From positions 1 through 64,000 of the forward strand of contig NZ_VOOR01000031.1 of assembly GCF_007993045.1 (NCBI RefSeq): a stretch of DNA of 64,000 bases, written 5' to 3'. Position 1 is the stretch's first letter. Every line of letters starts with the position of its first letter. Positions 51,801 to 60,975 of the stretch are shown piece after piece. The DNA is from Phaeodactylibacter luteus. GTDB taxonomy: Bacteria; Bacteroidota; Bacteroidia; Chitinophagales; Saprospiraceae. The position numbers were made by a program, and so were the translations under genes. The notes beneath the pieces were generated by a model that worked only from the letters and a program-made list of their open reading frames with translations, did no database searches and was not told the DNA's origin.

Positions 51801-51811
51801 CCCAAGCTACT

Positions 51812-52007
51812 GGGCGCAAACCAGATTATCGATCTTCTTTGGACTGCCCCTGCCGCAATGTGAGGGGGCCTGCCCCTGCCAGTGGGCAGGTGCCGCTATG
51901 CTCCGGGGCTCGCTGTCCGCTCGGCCCTGTCGGGCTTACACCCCTGCGCAGCGCTAGGCCAATGCCAGGCTATCGTATAAACACCTCCTATATTTGGGTT
52001 TACGCCC
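51812..52007 (+). repeat. Family A repeat, copy A8 (complete)
   Basis: Ends GGGCGCAAACCAGATTATCG and the complement of GGGTTTACGCCC-type form inverted repeats. The flanks AAGCTACT and GAGCTATT are degenerate 8-bp direct repeats. The element fills the gap between the YbbR gene stop (11 bp away) and the TAG of the minus-strand membrane protein gene (3 bp away). The core has hairpin CCTGCC/GGCAGG and loop variant GCCC-TGTC-GGGC. Confidence 0.85.
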
Positions 52008-52010
52008 GAG

Positions 52011-53324
52011 CTATTCGTACCTCACGTCCAGCCGGAGTTCCCACATATAAGCCACCACTTCCTCCCACATATACCATTCATAATGCGGCCCTCTGAAGTG
52101 CACGGCCAGCATATAGCCATAATACAGGAGCACCAGCCATACCGCCACAAGGAAGATTTTTGGCAGCCACCACCGGCTGCCCATCACGTTGGAGAACAGC
52201 CAGGCCATTGGCACTGCCAGGAAAACATAGTATTCCACAAAATTGCGGTGGCCAAAAGCCCCCCCAAACCACCAGCACCACCAGCTCGCAGTAAGGTAGT
52301 AGGTCACCAGCCACATCAGCATGATCACGCCCATATTATAGCGGTTGCGCCACATGCCCAAAAAGCCGCCCAAAAGGGGCAAGGCCATCATCGGGCTGAA
52401 GAGCAGCCATCCATTTTTGATATCGAACAGGACCTTCCAAAACTCCGGCGCTGACCAGTTGAACCCCTCCTCCCCGTATGAGTAGATGAGCCAATCGCCC
52501 GAAAGGTATTTCCAATAGGCCAGCTGAGGCAGGAATACCAGGGCAGCGGCTAAGGGGGCCAGCCAAAGGTGGCGAGCTTCCCGGGCCACAAACTGCAACC
52601 GCACTACAAACCCTTGCCAACTGCGCACGTCGTATAGGCCCAAGAACAACAGCACCAGCATATTGGTAGGCCGGATGAGGGTGATCAGCCCCAACAGCAG
52701 CCCCATCCCGGCACTGCGCCAAGGGCCTGGCTTTTGGTAAAAGCCGGGCGCCAGCCAAAACCAGAGCGCAAACAAGAAGAAGGAATAGACGTGCGACATG
52801 CCCGGCTCCTGCAGCACATAATGGTATAGGTTGGTCCCTAAAAATAAGCCAGTGACAACCATCATGGCCACGCCGGGCTTAAAGTGCCGCAATAGCGACA
52901 GGTGCAACAGCCACAAGCCCAGAAATCCGTAAAAAATGCCTGCTGCCTGCAGACCGTAGAGGTAAACATCGCTGTAGCCGTCCGCTTTTCTGCCCGAAGC
53001 AAGGGCCAGCAGATGTGCTATGCCAAAGAAAGGGGCCTCTAGCATAGCTACCCCGCAGGTGTATTTGGTAAACCGCTTGTTGGTGCCTTCGTAATTGAAA
53101 AATTGGTCTGTAGTGCGGACATCAAGCCCTTCAAAACCATCGTCATGGACAAACAGAGCGCGCAGATAAAGGTAGTACCCCTCAGCGTCAGACCAGATCA
53201 TCCCCCGGTGGAAACGCCCGCCCAGGTTCAGGGCCCGGTAGCCTGCAAACAGCAGTAGGATGAGCAGGTAATACCGGGCAAGCCATTGCCCTCCATTTTT
53301 CAGCCCGGTCAACAATACATTCAT
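52011..53324 (-). CDS. Polytopic membrane protein, GT-C-glycosyltransferase-like
   Basis: This 437-residue protein has about ten membrane helices and a large first periplasmic loop containing GRFHRGMIWSDAEGYYLY. The DAEG acidic pair after helix I resembles the DD/DE metal site of GT-C glycosyltransferases such as PMT and ArnT. I do not recognise a closer family. It is the last gene of the DUF4956-CotH operon, 24 bp after the dehydrogenase gene. Function is a guess; membrane topology is firm. Confidence 0.72.
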   Translation of the reverse strand: MNVLLTGLKNGGQWLARYYLLILLLFAGYRALNLGGRFHRGMIWSDAEGYYLYLRALFVHDDGFEGLDVRTTDQFFNYEGTNKRFTKYTCGVAMLEAPFFGIAHLLALASGRKADGYSDVYLYGLQAAGIFYGFLGLWLLHLSLLRHFKPGVAMMVVTGLFLGTNLYHYVLQEPGMSHVYSFFLFALWFWLAPGFYQKPGPWRSAGMGLLLGLITLIRPTNMLVLLFLGLYDVRSWQGFVVRLQFVAREARHLWLAPLAAALVFLPQLAYWKYLSGDWLIYSYGEEGFNWSAPEFWKVLFDIKNGWLLFSPMMALPLLGGFLGMWRNRYNMGVIMLMWLVTYYLTASWWCWWFGGAFGHRNFVEYYVFLAVPMAWLFSNVMGSRWWLPKIFLVAVWLVLLYYGYMLAVHFRGPHYEWYMWEEVVAYMWELRLDVRYE

Positions 53325-53348
53325 AGGTCCAGGTGTTGTAAGCGCCCG

Positions 53349-56057
53349 TTATCGGGCAAGCACTAAGGTGCCCAGGTGTTCATTGGCACCATCCCAAATA
53401 CGGTAGTGGTAAACGCCGTTGGGGAGCTGCCCCGGCAGTACTTCTTTCTCGAAAGCTGCTCCCGGGCTGACCGGCCAGACTTGGCGCTGCACCACTTTCC
53501 CTAACATATCAATCAGCTCCAGCGCCAGCTCCTCTCCTGCCACCTCTTCTACACTGACCGTGAAAGAAGAGCGGACCGGGTTAGGGAAGACCTTCACCGG
53601 CAGGGGGCGGGGGAACCCCACCTTCAAGGTATTAGAAAAGCGGTAAGCCCCATTGGCAGTGACCGCTCTGACCCGATAGTTGTTTGTCCCTTTCCTGGGC
53701 CCATCATCGAAGAAATCATAACGGCCGGCACCGGTAGCCGCCACCTGCCCAATGGGCTCGAACTGATAGGGGTCGGGGCTGCGCTCCACCAGATAATACG
53801 CCATGCTGTCTTCCGCAGTAGTCTCCCAATGCAAAGCCACGCCTGCCCCCTCAGGCGCACCCTCAAGGGCGGCCCACGCTACGAAAGGCTCCCCGCAATA
53901 GGGATAGATGCGCTGCACTACGGTTGTGCTCAGCCCGCCAGGGTCAGCAACAGTCAGCTCGGTGCGGTACCAGTACAGCTCTTCCTGGCAGCCCAATGGG
54001 CTGATGAGGGCAAAACTCCTCGGGTTAAAATCGACGGGGTCGGGGTGGAAGTGGTCGTTGTGGTGCAGGAAAGTCCGCCATTGATAAGTCAGCTCTTCTG
54101 CTGAATGCTCAGCATCCGCCACATCAGCTATAAGGGGGAGCAGGGTCGTCCCTTGGTCAAGGGGATAGCGCCAGCCATCCTCAAAGCTGCTGATGCGCAC
54201 CTGAGGCGGGGTATTATCCAGGGAAACTACGGCTTCGTCAGCATCCTCAGCGCCCAGGCTGTCGGCGACGGTCAGCTTCACCGTATAGCTCCCGCTGCCG
54301 GTAAAAGTATGGCTTACGTTGACCCCTTCGGCGGTCTGCCCGTCCCCAAAGTCCCAGTGGTAAGCGACCAGGGGCAGGTTGGTATCATAAGAAGCGGAAG
54401 CATCAAAATCAACAGTAAGGGGGGCAGCCCCAAAGAACTGTTCCGCCCCGATGTCTGCCACCGGCGGGGGGTTGCCCCCGAAGCTGATTTGGTGCACCTT
54501 GCCGTCCAGGCCGATATAGTAGAGCTTGCCATCGGCAGGGTTAGCAGCAAGGTGGATGATGTCCCGGGCGTTGCCATGGAAAGGCTCGACGTGCAGCAAG
54601 CGTTGTTGTTCGTCAAAATCCGCCACCTTGATCCAGCCGCTAAAGTCTACCATAAAATACTTCCCACGGTACTGTTCCGGGAAATGCTCGTGCTCATAAA
54701 AGGCCCCGGCAAGAGAAGAGAAGCCATCGAACACCTCGGCCCCCTCCAGCCCGGATGCTGCCGTACCGAGGTTGGCACCGGTATAAAAGCCCTGTTCGTC
54801 AAAGACCGGCACCTGTGCCCGGGTTGGGGGGTTCCACTTGGCATTGCTCCAGAGCAGGGCCGGCATAGTGCCCACCATATAATCTTCTACAGGCACCTGA
54901 TCGTTGCAAGGGTTGGGGGGCACCGTATGCCCGCCCTGACGTGGGTTGACGTACAGGTCTTTGAAGTCGAAGAACTCCTCATCGCAGCCATTGCCATATA
55001 GCGGATTGGGGCGCAGCTGATTGGGCGGAGGCTCGGCCGTGAAATAAGGCCAGTGTGCGCCCAGCCCTTCCATGATGGGCCAGCCAAAGTTCTGGCCGGG
55101 CTGAGTAGCGATATTGAGCTCTTCCCAAGCACCGTTGCCGACATCGCCGATGTAAATGGCCCCCGGGTTGCCGTCTTCCGGGTAATGACTGCCCGTATTG
55201 GGCCGGATATGTATGCGGTAAGGGTTGCGGAGGCCCAAGGCCCAGGTCCGGGAAGCTGCAGAACGCGGGGCTTCCGCCTCGTAGTAAGGGTTGCTGCGCA
55301 GCCCCTCCCCAGTCTCAGCATCGATCCGCAAGATTTTGCCATTGAGGTTGCCCAAATACTGCGCCCGGTAAGACCCCAAGTCTTGATCGGGGGAGATCAC
55401 CCCAGCCGCAATCGCCTCTGATGCCATCGTGCCGAACTCATCCCCGCCTATGTCTATCCCCCCATTGCCGGTAGCATCTCCAGAACTGACGAGCAAGGTC
55501 CCATCGGCAGCCATGGCAAGGCTGCCCAGCCCGTGGAACTCGTACAACAGCGGGATGCCATCGGCCAAAGCCTCCCCCAGGAGCACCTTCCGGCTGCCCT
55601 CCAGCACACGCAGGTAGGCCGTCGTGGGGTCAGCCCGGTAGCGTACTACCCGGCCAATAGTGGGCGCCCAAGTGACGGTAGTGTCCGGGTGGTATGCCGG
55701 TGTCCCGAAATACGCATAATGGTGGAGGTCTAGTGCATACAAAAGATAAAAGTAGCCGTTTGCAAGAAAATCATTGTCCAGCGTAAAGCCCATCAAGCCA
55801 TGGTCTTTCCAGTTGCTGACTTCCTCCGAAATATCGATCAATGGCTCATCGTAGAGGTTGCCTTCTGCATCTGCAACCCGCACTACACCTTTCTTCTCCC
55901 AAATGTACATGCGGCCGTTGTCGTCGAATGTCAGGCCCACCGGGTAATCCAGCCCTTCCACATAGTCCACATCGTAGAAGCCTTCCGGGAGGTCCTGTGC
56001 CATAGCAGGGGCCAGTGCGAGCATCAGCAAGCAAACAAAGCTGGGGGTAATTTTCAT
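53349..56057 (-). CDS. PQQ-type sugar dehydrogenase with PKD domain and T9SS tail
   Basis: This 902-residue secreted protein has a signal peptide (MKITPSFVCLLMLALAPAMA). A soluble-glucose-dehydrogenase-like six-bladed propeller spans about 22-510 (EGLDYPVGLTFDDNGRMYIW; YEFHGLGSLAMAADG; SRTWALGLRNPYRI). A PKD domain follows (about 525-600, YHWDFGDGQTAEG), then an FnIII-like region and a T9SS type A tail (VFPNPVRSSFTV; LPNGVYHYRIW). The propeller family oxidises sugars or is a PQQ-like hydrolase/lectin; cofactor binding is not shown. It lies 11 bp after the CotH gene in one operon. Confidence 0.9.
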   Translation of the reverse strand: MKITPSFVCLLMLALAPAMAQDLPEGFYDVDYVEGLDYPVGLTFDDNGRMYIWEKKGVVRVADAEGNLYDEPLIDISEEVSNWKDHGLMGFTLDNDFLANGYFYLLYALDLHHYAYFGTPAYHPDTTVTWAPTIGRVVRYRADPTTAYLRVLEGSRKVLLGEALADGIPLLYEFHGLGSLAMAADGTLLVSSGDATGNGGIDIGGDEFGTMASEAIAAGVISPDQDLGSYRAQYLGNLNGKILRIDAETGEGLRSNPYYEAEAPRSAASRTWALGLRNPYRIHIRPNTGSHYPEDGNPGAIYIGDVGNGAWEELNIATQPGQNFGWPIMEGLGAHWPYFTAEPPPNQLRPNPLYGNGCDEEFFDFKDLYVNPRQGGHTVPPNPCNDQVPVEDYMVGTMPALLWSNAKWNPPTRAQVPVFDEQGFYTGANLGTAASGLEGAEVFDGFSSLAGAFYEHEHFPEQYRGKYFMVDFSGWIKVADFDEQQRLLHVEPFHGNARDIIHLAANPADGKLYYIGLDGKVHQISFGGNPPPVADIGAEQFFGAAPLTVDFDASASYDTNLPLVAYHWDFGDGQTAEGVNVSHTFTGSGSYTVKLTVADSLGAEDADEAVVSLDNTPPQVRISSFEDGWRYPLDQGTTLLPLIADVADAEHSAEELTYQWRTFLHHNDHFHPDPVDFNPRSFALISPLGCQEELYWYRTELTVADPGGLSTTVVQRIYPYCGEPFVAWAALEGAPEGAGVALHWETTAEDSMAYYLVERSPDPYQFEPIGQVAATGAGRYDFFDDGPRKGTNNYRVRAVTANGAYRFSNTLKVGFPRPLPVKVFPNPVRSSFTVSVEEVAGEELALELIDMLGKVVQRQVWPVSPGAAFEKEVLPGQLPNGVYHYRIWDGANEHLGTLVLAR

Positions 56058-56068
56058 GGTACGCTACG

Positions 56069-59041
56069 TTATAATCCTAAAATCTGACTGCCTTCTCCGG
56101 CACTGAAAAGCCTTCTGAGGCCTTGGCCCTGATAAGACTCCACTACGATGACCGCAGGGCCAAACTCAGGCTTCTTCTGATAGGCTGCAAAGCCCTGATC
56201 ACAATCGGCCAATTCACAATCTTTTACACGGAGCACGGACAAATCTTTGCTCGCCATCCCGATCACTGCGCCTTTGATGGCAGTGCCCACTACGGTAACG
56301 TCGCTTTCCTCCCCAACGCTGATTCCTTTGTCCCCGTTTTTTCGGAGCTGGCAATCCGAAATGGTGACCGTGCTGCCCGAAAAATCAAGCCCATCGTTGC
56401 CAGTCTGCTCCAGCCTACAGTTGCGGACGCCCCCTTTGCAGAAGTCTGCATCAAAACCATCGGAAAAGGTTTCGCCAATATAGGAGTCTGCCAGCTCAAA
56501 TTCAGAGCGGACCGTATTGAGGGCGTCCTCTGAGCGGTTCTTTATGATGGCGCAGTGGCTCAGGCTCACGGGGGCCTCATAAAAAGTGAGCGCCCCGGTC
56601 AGTTGCCAGCGCCCTTCACGCGGAGCCCCCAGCCCTTCCGCCATCAGGTAGCGGGCTGTGGAGGGGCCGCCGGGGGAAAGCACAGCCAGCCCACCGCCGT
56701 CTCTGGCCGGGGAAACAACCCGCACCGGCCGGCCGGCCGTGCCCATGGCCTGCAATGGGCTGAAGCTGATGAGGGATGCCCCGCGCGACAGCTCGATGAC
56801 AGCGCCCGCTTCCATGACCAATTGATAGCCCGGTGGCACAACGAGCGTTTCCCGCAGCTCATGCCGCCCTTCAGGGAAAAGGACGGCCCCCTCTTCTACA
56901 CGGTAGCTCTGCCCGGGCTTCAGCCCTGCAAGGCCCCTGAGGCGCTGCATATCCGTAGGAAAGCCGGGGGCTGCGTAAGGCAAAATGGGGGCCGAGAAAA
57001 GGGTGTCCAGGCCAGGCACTTTAAAAAACAAATGCGTGGCCGCTGCGCTGACCCTGACCTCCGTAAACTCCGGGGGGAGCTGCTCCTGCTGTACCTGCTC
57101 CTCTAGAAAGCCGCCCTGCTGAAGGGCGCTGTCCTTCCTCAGGCGCTCAGCGTAAGCGCGGGGGGGGCGTGCGGGCAGCAGTACATCTAGCCCGGCTGAT
57201 GGCTGCTCCTCCCGCAAGCCATACCCTACAAGCCTCAAAGGCAAATGATGCCGGTTGCATACCCAAAGCTGACGGTCTGGCCCTAAGACCGACTGCGTGT
57301 AAGCAGCCAGGCTGAAAGGCTCGAACGGGAGGAGCAAACTGTGCACGTAAGCGCCCTCCCGCTGATAGTCTTGCAGGGAGGGCTTGTACTCCGGGTATTC
57401 GGCCTGAATGGCCTGCAAGCGGGCGCTCCACTGCCCAGCCAGCGTATCGAGCTGTGCCCGCCAGGCGGCGGCAGAACTGAGCCGGTGCAGGGCTTCTAAG
57501 TAAGCCGCTGTGAAATCTTCTTCCTGGAAGAGCTGAGCGATCAGGGGGTGGCTGACCGGGGCAAAACCGGACAGCGCCCCACCGCCTAGCAAGCGGTAGA
57601 GCGGGGGCGGCTTGCCGCCGTACCCGTCAAAACCTATGGGCTCCAGCAGCCCGGTGATGGGGTTGTAGTAAAAACGCTGATTGTGCCAGGCCAGGCCGTG
57701 CCGGGCGTTCACCAAATCGCAATAAGCCAGGTAGACGGCCATCTTTGGCAAGTCGAATATGGCCCGGGCGGGCACCTCGCCGCGGCGGTACTGCTCCATG
57801 AGGCTGCGGGCTTCCAGGATCTGCTCGGCAACCGCAGGGTTCTCTTCTGAGGGCTTATCGTCAAAAGGCGCGATCTCAGCGCTATAGGCCGTACCCGTCC
57901 GGTAGGCAGCGCCAGGCTTTACATAGCCGTGGGCGGAAAGCTGCCGCCCGATCGTTGCCCAATAAGCATCCTCCTCAAACTTCATGATCGGCCCTTCTCT
58001 ACGGTTACGGGACTCAACCAGCTGTTTTTCAAAATGCTCTTCCCAAGCGTAAACCCCCAAAGATTCGCCATTCAGCAGCAGCTCGACAAAATCGTAGCGG
58101 GTGGTCAGGACATCGGCAGACTCCAGCAGCTGATGGAAAAGCCACTCGTGGAGGTGGTAGCGGGCGTGGGGGGCATGTAGGGAGAAGGTGCGCACCCGGT
58201 TCCAGGCCTGGCCGCTTTCCAGCTTCACCCGAAACGACCATTTGTCGCCCTGCAAGTGGTCTAGCCAATCGCCTTTGAGGCGGACCCTGGCAGGCAGCTC
58301 ACTGCCGTTTTCCGCAATAAAACCAGCAGCCACCCAATCGAGCCCATCACTGGAAAGGATGCCTCGCTGAAGGGCTTTTTCCCGGTTGGCCTGTAATGTT
58401 TTCATGCCCCCAGGCCCTATGCTCAGCTCCACCCTTGGGAGCTCAAAAGCTTCCGGTGCGGGCAGGGCTTCCAAGGTGAAGTCATCAAACCAGGCTTCCG
58501 ACTCCCCATTCCCATATACATATACCTTAACGCGCTCGGCCTGCCCACGGTAGGGGATGCTGAAGCGGACCTCCAGCCGTTCCCAGCCTTCGCCATCCCG
58601 CTCCAGTGCGATGTTCTCCTGCCAATACCGTGGCTGTGCCCCCCCTTCCAGGCTCACCGCCAAGTACGTATCCTGACGGCCCGACTGCTTACGCCAGATG
58701 CTGGCTTTCCAAGCAGTGCCCGGCTTTGGGCGCTCCTGTGTATAGCCCAGCCCATACTGCAGCCCCTCCCCTAAAGGCAAATGGCTGCTGTACTGCCCAT
58801 TGCGGGCAAAGGCTGCAGACTGTGTCGCCCCTCCGGCAAACTCCTGCCCACGGGAGCGGAAATTGCCCCCTTTCACCCGTTCGGCGCCACAATACAGCAC
58901 CCCTTCCGGAAGCTCCTCGTAAGGGGACGGCTCGGGCCAGAGCGCGGCCATGGCCAGCAGCAGGCAAGCTCCGCCCAGGATGATGAACAGCCGCCTTGCC
59001 GCAAGTGCCCTTGCCCGTTTGTGCTCGTCATGTATGATCAT
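56069..59041 (-). CDS. CotH kinase-family protein fused to a right-handed beta-helix
   Basis: This 990-residue protein has an N-terminal membrane anchor (about 16-34), a carbohydrate-binding-like jelly-roll (about 55-195) and a CotH kinase domain (about 230-620). CotH segments include WSFRVKLESGQAWN, EGPIMKFEEDAYWA and HNQRFYYNPITGLLEPIGFD. A parallel beta-helix (about 740-985) follows, with repeated N/S/G-rich rungs (EQTGNDGLDFSGSTVTISDC). CotH proteins phosphorylate extracellular proteins in Bacillus spores; here a periplasmic or surface kinase is inferred. It lies 3 bp after the DUF4956 gene. Confidence 0.87.
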   Translation of the reverse strand: MIIHDEHKRARALAARRLFIILGGACLLLAMAALWPEPSPYEELPEGVLYCGAERVKGGNFRSRGQEFAGGATQSAAFARNGQYSSHLPLGEGLQYGLGYTQERPKPGTAWKASIWRKQSGRQDTYLAVSLEGGAQPRYWQENIALERDGEGWERLEVRFSIPYRGQAERVKVYVYGNGESEAWFDDFTLEALPAPEAFELPRVELSIGPGGMKTLQANREKALQRGILSSDGLDWVAAGFIAENGSELPARVRLKGDWLDHLQGDKWSFRVKLESGQAWNRVRTFSLHAPHARYHLHEWLFHQLLESADVLTTRYDFVELLLNGESLGVYAWEEHFEKQLVESRNRREGPIMKFEEDAYWATIGRQLSAHGYVKPGAAYRTGTAYSAEIAPFDDKPSEENPAVAEQILEARSLMEQYRRGEVPARAIFDLPKMAVYLAYCDLVNARHGLAWHNQRFYYNPITGLLEPIGFDGYGGKPPPLYRLLGGGALSGFAPVSHPLIAQLFQEEDFTAAYLEALHRLSSAAAWRAQLDTLAGQWSARLQAIQAEYPEYKPSLQDYQREGAYVHSLLLPFEPFSLAAYTQSVLGPDRQLWVCNRHHLPLRLVGYGLREEQPSAGLDVLLPARPPRAYAERLRKDSALQQGGFLEEQVQQEQLPPEFTEVRVSAAATHLFFKVPGLDTLFSAPILPYAAPGFPTDMQRLRGLAGLKPGQSYRVEEGAVLFPEGRHELRETLVVPPGYQLVMEAGAVIELSRGASLISFSPLQAMGTAGRPVRVVSPARDGGGLAVLSPGGPSTARYLMAEGLGAPREGRWQLTGALTFYEAPVSLSHCAIIKNRSEDALNTVRSEFELADSYIGETFSDGFDADFCKGGVRNCRLEQTGNDGLDFSGSTVTISDCQLRKNGDKGISVGEESDVTVVGTAIKGAVIGMASKDLSVLRVKDCELADCDQGFAAYQKKPEFGPAVIVVESYQGQGLRRLFSAGEGSQILGL

Positions 59042-59044
59042 AGG

Positions 59045-59734
59045 CTAGACGATAAGTTCTGGCTGGTCAACAATCGAGAGCCGGGTAGAGGGCGACAGCG
59101 CTTTCACCTCTTCCTTGAGAGCAGCCAGGGACTTGAGGTCGCGGGCACGGGCGATGAAGGAAAGCTCCATCCCCTGCTCCAGGGTGTCCATGCGTTTGAG
59201 GGAGACAAAGGGCAGGTGAGAGGACAACAGCCGGGTGATTTTCTCCAGGTCTTCTATATCCGTAGTGAGCTGAATGAACAGGCGGCCCTCCTGCCGTTCC
59301 GGCTGCTGTTTCCAAATGAGCTTGCTGATGTAGAGGATGCCCAAAATCAAAGCCAATGCGACCACTGCCAAAACCGGTTGGTTGGCCCCGCCGGCCAGCC
59401 CCATGCCGATGGCGATAAAAAGGAAGGTCAGCTCCTCCGGGTCTTTGATGGCAGCCCGGTAGCGGACGATGGAGAGGGCGCCCACCAGGCCAAGGCTAAG
59501 CGCGATGGACGACTTCACGATCATGATGATGAGCAGGGTGCCTAGGGCCAGGGGCAGGAAGTTGTTGGCAAAACGCCGCCGGTTGGAGATGGCCTGCCCA
59601 AAATGAATGTAAAACAACCGCAGCAGTGAAACTAAAATGGCGGTCACCAAGATATTGAGCAGGAATTCATCCAAAGGGACATTATTCGAAAATTCCTGTA
59701 TGTACTGTTCTTGGAGCTGTTGTAGCAAATCCAT
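59045..59734 (-). CDS. DUF4956 membrane protein
   Basis: This 229-residue protein has four membrane segments (about 20-135). The loop between them holds SLGLVGALSIVRYRAAIKD, the family signature, and PEELTFLFIAIGMGLA. A cytoplasmic ferredoxin-like domain (about 150-229) follows. In other bacteria DUF4956 is encoded beside CotH and VTC-type polyphosphate polymerase domains. No VTC gene is in this window. It is the first gene of the operon and has a perfect promoter box 22 nt upstream of the ATG. Confidence 0.9.
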   Translation of the reverse strand: MDLLQQLQEQYIQEFSNNVPLDEFLLNILVTAILVSLLRLFYIHFGQAISNRRRFANNFLPLALGTLLIIMIVKSSIALSLGLVGALSIVRYRAAIKDPEELTFLFIAIGMGLAGGANQPVLAVVALALILGILYISKLIWKQQPERQEGRLFIQLTTDIEDLEKITRLLSSHLPFVSLKRMDTLEQGMELSFIARARDLKSLAALKEEVKALSPSTRLSIVDQPELIV

Positions 59735-59755
59735 AATGATGTGGCAGTTAGGCTG

Positions 59756-59763
59756 CAAATATA
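59756..59763 (-). promoter_or_regulatory. -7 box of the DUF4956-CotH operon
   Basis: The minus strand reads TATATTTG, an exact TAnnTTTG match 21 nt before the DUF4956 ATG. It marks the probable start of a transcript covering all four genes down to 52011. Confidence 0.55.
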
Positions 59764-59924
59764 AGCCAAATCCGCAGGGGCCAAAACCTTGCACGCTTCT
59801 TTGGCGGCCCACGGCAAACAACGGCTGGCTTTCCGGGACGGGTTCTCTCTCATCATCCGCTGTGAGCGCAACGCAGGCAGTTGGATGGAAAGGCCCTTCC
59901 TCCCCCGCCACCTGCTAGCCTGCC

Positions 59925-60080
59925 GGGCCAGCGATGCGAAGGGGTGGCCAGCCCGCAGGGCCGAGCGGGCAGCGAGCCCCGGAGCGTAGCGGCACCCGCA
60001 TTTAGAGATGCTAACATGGCATCTCTAAGCACTCCAAGGCGGGTGCGGCCCCCAAAAAAGAGGCCATCAGATTGGCGCAC
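59925..60080 (-). repeat. Family A repeat, copy A9 with extended hairpin
   Basis: This is a reverse copy whose first hairpin is enlarged: outer GCACCCGC/GCGGGTGC (59992-59999 with 60039-60046) encloses TTAGAGATGC/GCATCTCTAA (60002-60028). The core with CGGGGCTCGCTGCCCGCTCG is intact. The end facing the cNMP-AlbA_2 gene lies about 8 bp from that gene's stop. The 59735-60087 gap holds only this element. Confidence 0.8.
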
Positions 60081-60087
60081 AGGCGCA

Positions 60088-60975
60088 TTATTGCCCTGAA
60101 AAGCGGTAGCGGTCTTCTACATATTTGATGATCTCGCTGCTCTTTTTGATGCGGATATTGGCCGAGCCGGTGCGGATGTAGAAGACCTCTTGCTCGTTGC
60201 CCTTTTTGTCCACATCCCGGTAAAAAACAGGGGATTTGGCCGGAGGGGTATCTATGCGGAAGATCATATTGCCCTCGATCTCTTCGATGTCGAAAGACAA
60301 CTGTGTAGCGAAGAAGGAGCCGAGGTTGCGCTGTACCGCGCTGGTGATGCTGCGCTTGAAATTATCGATATCCGAAGTCGTAGCTTCCAGCCCTATGATC
60401 TTCCCTTCGTCATCGACACCGCAGAAGACGGTGCCCCCGTTGAGGTTCATAAATGCAGACAAGGTCTGTATGATTTTATCGCGGTGGTATTTGTCGATCG
60501 ACTCTTTGAACTCCACCATATCGCTTTCGCCCTTATCGATGATGCGCTTGCTGTTGGCCGATTCGTCTGCAACGAGGTAAGTGATGATTTTTTGGGTGAG
60601 CGCCCAGGAGAGCTTCATTTTCAGGCTATCAGAGAGTGTATCCGAGTCAAAAGTTTTGGCTTTGTCAAATACGATGAGCTGCGAAGGCTCGGTAGCCCTG
60701 ATGGTGCCAAGGCGGGAAGTTTTATTGAAGATGGCGATCTCGCCGAACAGCTGCCCCTTGATGTATTCTTTGGGCTCTTTGCGGGCCAGGTACAAAATAA
60801 GGCGGCCAAAATGGACGATGTAAAAGGACTCCCCTTTCTGTTCGATGGAGAACACTTCGTGCCCGGCCTGATAGTCTACAAGGCGTGCGACCTTGCTGAG
60901 GCCCTGTAGGTCTTCGGTGGAAAAGCCTTTCAGCTCAGGGCACCTGCTCAGGGTCTTTATTACCGCTTCATTCAT
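60088..60975 (-). CDS. Cyclic-nucleotide-binding domain fused to AlbA_2 (Schlafen-type) domain
   Basis: This 295-residue protein has a CNB domain (about 1-125) with phosphate-binding cassette FGEIAIFNKTSRLGTIRA, including the key Arg88. An AlbA_2/Schlafen-type domain (about 150-290) follows with the hallmark ESDMVEFKESI, then FMNLNGGTVFCGVDDEGKIIGL. AlbA_2 domains bind nucleic acid and occur in regulators and in anti-phage or toxin proteins. The pairing with a CNB domain suggests ligand-gated activity. No nucleotide cyclase gene is present in the window. Confidence 0.9.
   Translation of the reverse strand: MNEAVIKTLSRCPELKGFSTEDLQGLSKVARLVDYQAGHEVFSIEQKGESFYIVHFGRLILYLARKEPKEYIKGQLFGEIAIFNKTSRLGTIRATEPSQLIVFDKAKTFDSDTLSDSLKMKLSWALTQKIITYLVADESANSKRIIDKGESDMVEFKESIDKYHRDKIIQTLSAFMNLNGGTVFCGVDDEGKIIGLEATTSDIDNFKRSITSAVQRNLGSFFATQLSFDIEEIEGNMIFRIDTPPAKSPVFYRDVDKKGNEQEVFYIRTGSANIRIKKSSEIIKYVEDRYRFSGQ

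Follow-up and report, generated by a model that had tools for sequence, protein, structure and literature searches.

A four-gene operon on the minus strand of Phaeodactylibacter luteus DNA (contig NZ_VOOR01000031.1, positions 1 to 64,000; this whole stretch of 64,000 nucleotides is called the window) encodes a DUF4956 membrane protein, a protein with a CotH-kinase fold and a beta-helix (CotHbeta), a secreted protein of the sugar dehydrogenase family (GSDH) and a GT-C-like membrane protein. This operon is a conserved variant of the DUF4956-VTC-CotH module and not an independent system. DUF4956, CotHbeta and GSDH form a conserved operon, which the GT-C-like gene joins in close relatives. The gene for the VTC-type polyphosphate polymerase mostly moved and was not replaced, because all 30 genomes tested for it keep it, with the best match beside ribBA in 21. 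We think, with a probability a little under 0.4, that the operon supplies the membrane and envelope components of a system for glycan decoration linked to polyphosphate, whose genes are divided between two loci.

The VTC gene at a second locus

No VTC gene is present at the operon, as the initial annotation of the window had stated. The genome nevertheless holds a single VTC gene (contig C35, 59718-60344), which lies inside a 122-kb contig beside ribBA and scores 84 bits against a cut-off of 23, so that the reported absence applies to the locus and not to the genome. The 213-residue product has no membrane segment in a crude scan. VTC was also found in all 30 tested genomes that carry a CotHbeta block without VTC, against 72 of the 149 genomes sampled from the order (p = 6e-9, uncorrected for relatedness). 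The best VTC match adjoins ribBA in 21 of the 30 genomes (L156-L185), and this pairing is conserved through the clade; the context was read from the best match per genome, and nine genomes have further VTC matches. Six of the CotHbeta loci through which these genomes were chosen run into a contig end, either shortly past CotHbeta or inside GSDH. The proposal that secreted modules stand in for VTC is correct at the level of the locus but fails for the cell as a whole. A history in which VTC was lost and replaced is ruled out by its presence in the window genome and in 30 of 30 others, beside ribBA in 21.

Seven of the 30 genomes, and the window genome, contain exactly one DUF4956 gene, which is linked to CotHbeta; VTC stands beside ribBA in six of the seven. 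In these genomes, therefore, the CotHbeta-linked DUF4956 is the only one with which VTC could pair. Where a sole DUF4956 and a sole VTC gene lie apart, the genome provides a clean genetic case, in which VTC could be removed while the operon is left intact. DUF4956 was found in 81 and VTC in 72 genomes of the order sample (n = 149). Among 77 VTC matches over the cut-off, 73 lie within 6 kb of DUF4956 and 66 start no more than 1.2 kb away, a count that leaves out one below-cut-off row from each of two order searches. The four exceptions are the window genome, two genomes without a DUF4956 match and one contig break.

Organization and conservation of the operon

The operon spans 52011-59734 and consists of four minus-strand genes, which code for DUF4956 (59045-59734, 229 residues), CotHbeta (56069-59041, 990 residues), GSDH (53349-56057, 902 residues) and the GT-C-like protein (52011-53324, 437 residues), with intergenic gaps of 3, 11 and 24 bp. 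They share one -7 box, TATATTTG, at 59756-59763 on the minus strand (reading 59763-59756), of the form TAnnTTTG, which we take to be the Bacteroidota-type -7 consensus. Gaps, coordinates and box all agree with the initial annotation. DUF4956 starts at the ATG at 59734, and a longer listed open reading frame opens upstream of the promoter. The motif TAnnTTTG occurs in the 120 bp that precede 37 of 59 DUF4956 genes (4.1 expected from shuffling), 18 of 83 CotHbeta genes (5.1 expected), 5 of 21 GSDH genes with weak matches included (1.0 expected) and 3 of 29 VTC genes (1.2 expected).

An identical four-gene set, with gaps of 2, 10 and 24 bp, is present in Phaeodactylibacter xiamenensis KD52 (L114), where the proteins are 58% (CotHbeta), 69% (GSDH), 78% (DUF4956) and 65% (GT-C-like) identical to those of the window. 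The four-gene operon is real and beyond chance, since P. xiamenensis shares both genes and spacing.

A neighbourhood survey, which had been proposed along with the annotation, was made through a wide search with CotHbeta. Of at least 559 candidates the best 80 were kept, which gave 79 named loci and tallies that lean towards near relatives. The loci contain 81 CotHbeta blocks, in which genes were called with a simple open-reading-frame picker; L078/L114 and L084/L085 are near copies, and several loci are contigs of the order sample (e.g. L107 and G041:C94). DUF4956 is present in 60 of the 81 blocks, VTC in 34, GSDH in 17, and VTC and GSDH together in none (hypergeometric 2e-5, relatedness uncorrected). 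DUF4956, VTC and CotHbeta occur together in 28 blocks. The blocks usually run DUF4956-CotHbeta-VTC or DUF4956-CotHbeta-GSDH, and a few are permuted; GSDH stands on either side of CotHbeta and is duplicated in L104 and L121, and the block of Lewinella cohaerens DSM 23179 (L116) lacks it. A metallophosphoesterase gene lies within about five genes in 19 of the 79 loci. CotHbeta (E 1e-10) was detected in 15 of the 149 order genomes, and the window genome has a single copy.

The CotHbeta tree (FastTree, 78 rows) carries hand-assigned labels, with 21 rows unlabelled and the broken GSDH locus L121 off the tree. One supported clade of 31 rows takes in every one of the 17 GSDH rows, that of the window among them. 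This clade contains no VTC-labelled row, eight rows with neither gene and six unlabelled rows. The GSDH label changes six times over the tree, against 14.7 times when shuffled. The association is thus non-random, with DUF4956 in most blocks and the GSDH rows in one clade. In the simplest history, VTC would have left once and GSDH would have come in once and then been lost several times; several gains might also account for the pattern.

In L066, L071, L093 and L095 an extra CYTH-type protein is encoded between DUF4956 and CotHbeta. That of L066 has a likely signal sequence by eye and may be a second protein of tunnel-enzyme-like type, located outside the cytoplasm.

Architecture and active site of CotHbeta

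CotHbeta was modelled by AlphaFold with a pLDDT of 90.2. The model comprises a transmembrane (TM) anchor (residues 6-34), a CBM-like beta-sandwich (49-193), a CotH-kinase fold (200-602) and an AlgG-like right-handed beta-helix (697-990). The CotH profile PF08757 (34.4 against 23.8 bits, E 2.2e-8) and the Beta_helix profile PF13229 (32 against 25.9 bits, E 1.2e-7) both exceed their cut-offs, and CBM_4_9 falls just under its own (24.1 against 25.9 bits). The CotH fold matches Bacillus cereus CotH (5jd9/5jda; Foldseek 2.1e-10; Z 26.3/26.1), with a root-mean-square deviation of 3.5 over 328 residues for 5jd9. The beta-helix is closest to the alginate epimerase AlgG (4nk6; Z 27.6, 268 residues); its top matches are AlgG, AlgE4 and AlgE6, below which stand many carbohydrate-active enzymes and phage tailspikes. 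The CBM-type Foldseek matches are given without residue ranges and were placed at 49-193 by reading. The structure matches listed belong to one or two of the CotHbeta domains, and absences among them carry no meaning. The membrane anchor, CotH fold and beta-helix of the initial description are all found in the model, with a beta-sandwich in the place of the described jelly-roll; its kinase site is not of the usual kind.

The residue aligned with D251 of Bacillus subtilis CotH, which we take to be the metal-binding aspartate, is D472 of CotHbeta and is aspartate in 78 of 78 sequences. The catalytic aspartate (D228 in B. subtilis) is missing from all 78, and the aligned position 449 is occupied by G (49), S (17), A (9), T (2) or C (1). 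The equivalence of D228 and D251 to positions 449 and 472 comes from an alignment with B. cereus CotH and from the 23-residue spacing. Both the D228Q and the D251A variant of B. subtilis CotH are inactive (excerpts of PMC7821199). Residues K256, R271, E334, E335, H448 and N454 of the CotH domain are likewise invariant (78/78), as are D861, D864, D866, D883 and S888 of the beta-helix. The pairs D861/D883 and D866/S888 are spaced by 22 residues, about one coil of the beta-helix. As judged from the alignment, the CotH site appears to be strongly constrained yet no standard CotH kinase site, because the catalytic aspartate is lost throughout while the metal aspartate and the other residues are invariant. 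This check of the ATP-site residues makes an extracellular kinase, as first proposed, doubtful.

The window genome contains three other CotH matches, all far stronger than CotHbeta. A tandem pair of ordinary CotH genes lies directly upstream of DUF4956 in L088, and such a pair is found in the window genome at G000:C269:97169-99813.

The DUF4956 membrane protein

The DUF4956 gene of the operon is the only one in the genome. Its product matches PF16316 with 61-62.5 bits against a cut-off of 30.6 (E 1.5e-16); to our knowledge, no function has been assigned to this family. The conserved signature is GLVGALSIVR-R-AIK-PEEL, and G82-L102, including R91, R93 and K97, is mostly invariant over 59 sequences. 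In the model (pLDDT 80, pTM 0.54), helices extend to residue 141 and a beta-alpha-beta-beta-alpha-beta domain occupies residues 151-223. This C-terminal domain is ACT/ferredoxin-like, with ferredoxin-like structure matches of Z up to 10.1 that are generic. Membrane helices followed by an ACT-like domain are what we take to be the architecture of MgtC, and the model has both in this order. The MgtC profile (PF02308) gives E < 1 in 52 of 59 DUF4956 members, with a best value of 1.1e-4. On these grounds the membrane part appears to be MgtC-like. The likeness to MgtC/SapB lies in this weak profile match and the shared order of helices and ACT-like domain, whereas the window protein differs in scoring too low for the Pfam family (17.5 bits, with a cut-off of 31.4). 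An MgtC search of the window genome at E 0.001 gave no match, and a search of solved structures with the DUF4956 sequence gave only one chance match (E 2.4).

The GSDH and GT-C-like proteins

The profile matches agree with the description of GSDH as a sugar-dehydrogenase-family protein with a PKD domain, secreted by the type IX secretion system (T9SS). The protein passes PF07995 (74.6 against 25 bits, E 1.1e-20), PKD_4 (78.1 against 27 bits) and, narrowly, both sorting-tail profiles, PF18962 Por_Secre_tail (28.0 against 27) and TIGR04183 (26.9 against 23). The orthologues of L085 and L114 likewise pass PF18962. The TIGR03606 subfamily profile gave 28.1 bits, under its cut-off of 434.55, and the best solved relatives of the GSDH part by sequence are Hedgehog-interacting protein. 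The catalytic residues of soluble glucose dehydrogenase are H144, R228 and N229. H175 (18/18), R277 (18/18) and N278 (17/18) of GSDH may correspond to this catalytic His and Arg-Asn, as judged by motif and not by an alignment with the enzyme.

The fourth gene encodes a membrane protein, as annotated, and its assignment to GT-C goes by looks: a Pfam search of this protein and two orthologues gave no family, and a search against solved structures gave two chance-level matches (E 1.8 and 2.2). A crude hydropathy scan finds four strong segments only, and a D-x-E motif follows the first hydrophobic stretch by eye. Orthologues occupy the same place in L078, L114 and L081 (65-66% identity for L078 and L114), and a cut copy lies directly after CotHbeta in L083. 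Homologues, mostly longer, were found in 60 of the 149 order genomes. A different GT-C-like membrane protein follows GSDH in L080 and L082 (PMT_2 at 26.6 against 26.1 bits for L080, none for L082), and the L082 protein is unrelated to that of the window by BLASTP.

The order sample had hinted that GSDH and GT-C genes at such an operon are private to the window genome. This is ruled out by GSDH in 17 of the 81 closer blocks; one of the order-sample searches behind the hint scored only 6 candidates in each genome, out of as many as 164, and its absences are weak.

Relation to known systems

Genes for cotH, a polyphosphate polymerase, DUF4956 and DUF4832 have been reported beside Gram-positive pelDEADAFG clusters (excerpts of PMC7112168). 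In a streptococcal Pel locus, SIR_1592 is a protein with an MgtC-like TM region and an ACT domain, for which the name DUF4956 is not used in the excerpts of PMC12345266. We infer that SIR_1592 is the streptococcal DUF4956 counterpart and that SIR_1591-1594 are likely counterparts. Deletion of SIR_1592 raises Pel and deletion of the CotH-like SIR_1594 lowers it, and aggregation is down in both (excerpts of PMC12345266). The linkage of DUF4956, CotH and VTC had been annotated as being without established function; the co-occurrence stands, and the lack of function is partly out of date in view of these mutant phenotypes.

Within the same excerpts (PMC12345266), the three-gene arrangement is reported nowhere outside the Pel locus. 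PelG, the one Pel protein searched, was found in 0 of 42 genomes of the group that includes the window genome, and the control search was positive in 1 of 14 (Thermotoga maritima); by this measure a Pel link in the present clade is ruled out. The trio is thus not confined to pel loci, as 28 of 81 blocks hold it with a differently built CotH. The likeness to the pel accessory set lies in the linkage of DUF4956, a CotH-type secreted protein and a VTC-type polymerase (excerpts of PMC7112168 and PMC12345266). The pel set is tied to an exopolysaccharide by mutants (PMC12345266), whereas in the present group PelG was not found, CotH is fused to CBM-like and beta-helix parts, VTC is mostly elsewhere, and GSDH and the GT-C-like protein have joined.

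The Bacillus CotH spore-coat kinase (5jd9/5jda) shares the fold and the metal-binding aspartate with CotHbeta. It differs in its catalytic aspartate, whose place is taken by G, S, A, T or C in all 78 CotHbeta sequences, and CotHbeta has extra domains and a TM anchor. In the eukaryotic VTC complex, synthesis by a VTC-domain polymerase is reported to be coupled to membrane translocation (PMC9911596), whereas the short VTC protein of the window genome has no membrane segment by the crude scan and DUF4956 would be its membrane partner. Two other papers that name DUF4956 place it, in the excerpts, just among regulated genes (PMC10434189; PMC6848847). No paper naming both CotH and sorbosone dehydrogenase was found in the open-licence literature, which is weak evidence of absence.

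A proposed split system and its alternatives

For the split system we count the operon match in P. xiamenensis, the make-up of the CotHbeta blocks (DUF4956 in 60 of 81, VTC and GSDH never together), the VTC-DUF4956 pairing (73/77), VTC in 30 of 30 genomes with the best match beside ribBA in 21, the genomes whose only DUF4956 is linked to CotHbeta, the predicted folds and the metallophosphoesterase (19/79). The altered Pel amount and aggregation on deletion of the likely streptococcal counterparts (excerpts of PMC12345266) are counted as well. We infer its steps as follows. On the cytoplasmic side of the inner membrane, VTC would build polyphosphate from ATP, and DUF4956, MgtC-like and with an ACT-like regulatory domain, would gate the polymer or convey it to the other side. 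CotHbeta, which its anchor would keep in the periplasm, would hold an envelope polysaccharide via its CBM-like and AlgG-like parts, and its CotH fold, without the usual catalytic aspartate, may place or sense phosphate groups on this putative substrate. At the surface, the T9SS-secreted GSDH protein would oxidise sugar ends, and the GT-C-like protein may transfer sugars from lipid carriers to this glycan. The link to an envelope glycan that had been drawn initially agrees with the CBM-like, AlgG-like and GSDH parts. A bolder form, which we regard as quite unlikely, makes CotHbeta a new periplasmic transferase of phosphate or whole chains from polyphosphate, supplied by VTC and DUF4956, onto the envelope polysaccharide. 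If true, it would account for the ability of CotH-type enzymes to act outside the cytoplasm, where little ATP is available; excerpts of PMC7821199 describe the ATP source of CotH in the spore coat as a question still unanswered.

Several observations weigh against the split system. In nine of the 30 genomes the best VTC match is not beside ribBA and lies beside another DUF4956 (six), another CotHbeta (two) or none of these (one); the first eight are therefore no clean cases of VTC acting apart. In L093 a further block, this one with VTC, lies nearby. A fairer comparison is with the genomes that have DUF4956, 70 of 81 of which have VTC, and here the 30 of 30 reaches only p = 0.03, again uncorrected for relatedness. 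Neither VTC nor GSDH is present in 30 of the 81 blocks, 14 of which are at a contig end and 16 not. The loss of the catalytic aspartate from every CotHbeta counts here too, and excerpts of PMC12345266 name no Pel or aggregation change for the mutant of the polymerase SIR_1593. DUF4956 is found without VTC in 11 of the 81 order genomes that have it. Of 17 retrieved loci that lack CotHbeta and whose DUF4956 is divergent or of class B, 12 have an HlyD-like adaptor gene close behind (L037-L041, L043, L044, L047-L051). The HlyD match was obtained for two adaptor members, and the adaptor family profile gave E 3.4e-8. DUF4956 need not serve polyphosphate, since it occurs without VTC and with this adaptor, and these settings favour a transport role for DUF4956, with polyphosphate not the cargo in every case.

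On this evidence DUF4956 could be the inner-membrane part of a trans-envelope exporter of a cargo other than polyphosphate, with CotH-type proteins and VTC acting on the cargo or its carrier. Eight of the 12 adaptor loci sit in seven genomes without VTC, and L040 and L041 also contain a classic CotH gene. A further protein of about 410 residues is encoded in ten of the 12; it gave no TolC match, the OEP profile appearing in one of nine at E 0.49, which counts against an exporter, as does the window operon, beside which no HlyD gene was seen. We consider an exporter unlikely. A pseudokinase role for CotHbeta is less easily set aside, though still doubtful. Its CotH fold would sense phosphate or a nucleotide and control the AlgG-like beta-helix, itself a true enzyme (epimerase, lyase or hydrolase) on surface polysaccharide, and DUF4956, like MgtC, would tune the supply of phosphate or ATP. 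The lost catalytic aspartate argues for this, together with the five invariant beta-helix residues, two pairs of which are one coil apart, and the AlgG, AlgE4 and AlgE6 matches, which are at the level of fold. A pure scaffold, however, would not need D472, N454, H448, R271, E334 and E335, which are invariant too.

GSDH and the GT-C-like protein might also be neighbours through shared regulation only, leaving DUF4956-CotHbeta, plus VTC in trans, as the working unit. Eight labelled rows of the GSDH clade lack GSDH, the GT-C-like gene is present in few loci and belongs to another family in L080/L082, and among the order genomes the window genome alone has a GSDH or GT-C homologue at most 10 kb from DUF4956 or CotHbeta (by eye). 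GSDH is, on the other hand, present in 17 of 81 blocks, on both sides of CotHbeta and duplicated in L104 and L121, and it is kept over deep branches of one clade; we regard shared regulation alone as improbable.

Sequences flanking the operon

Upstream of the operon, the minus-strand gene at 60088-60975 encodes a cyclic-nucleotide-binding domain joined to a Schlafen AlbA_2 domain. It differs from the divergent gene found upstream of CotHbeta in 18 related loci (L078, L081, L085, L114 and 14 others), which is absent beside the window operon. The divergently transcribed protein of these loci has about 230 residues, with a membrane segment and a coiled coil by eye, and its gene lies two genes ahead of CotHbeta, or three to four in two of the loci. 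A repeat family, with matches of about 35-160 bp that are 80-92% alike, occupies about ten places in the window. Copies at 51801-52010 and 59900-60060 flank the operon, and some eight further places lie near 2.7k, 10.8k, 17.8k, 20.9k, 32.1k, 37.0k, 46.9k and 61.2k.

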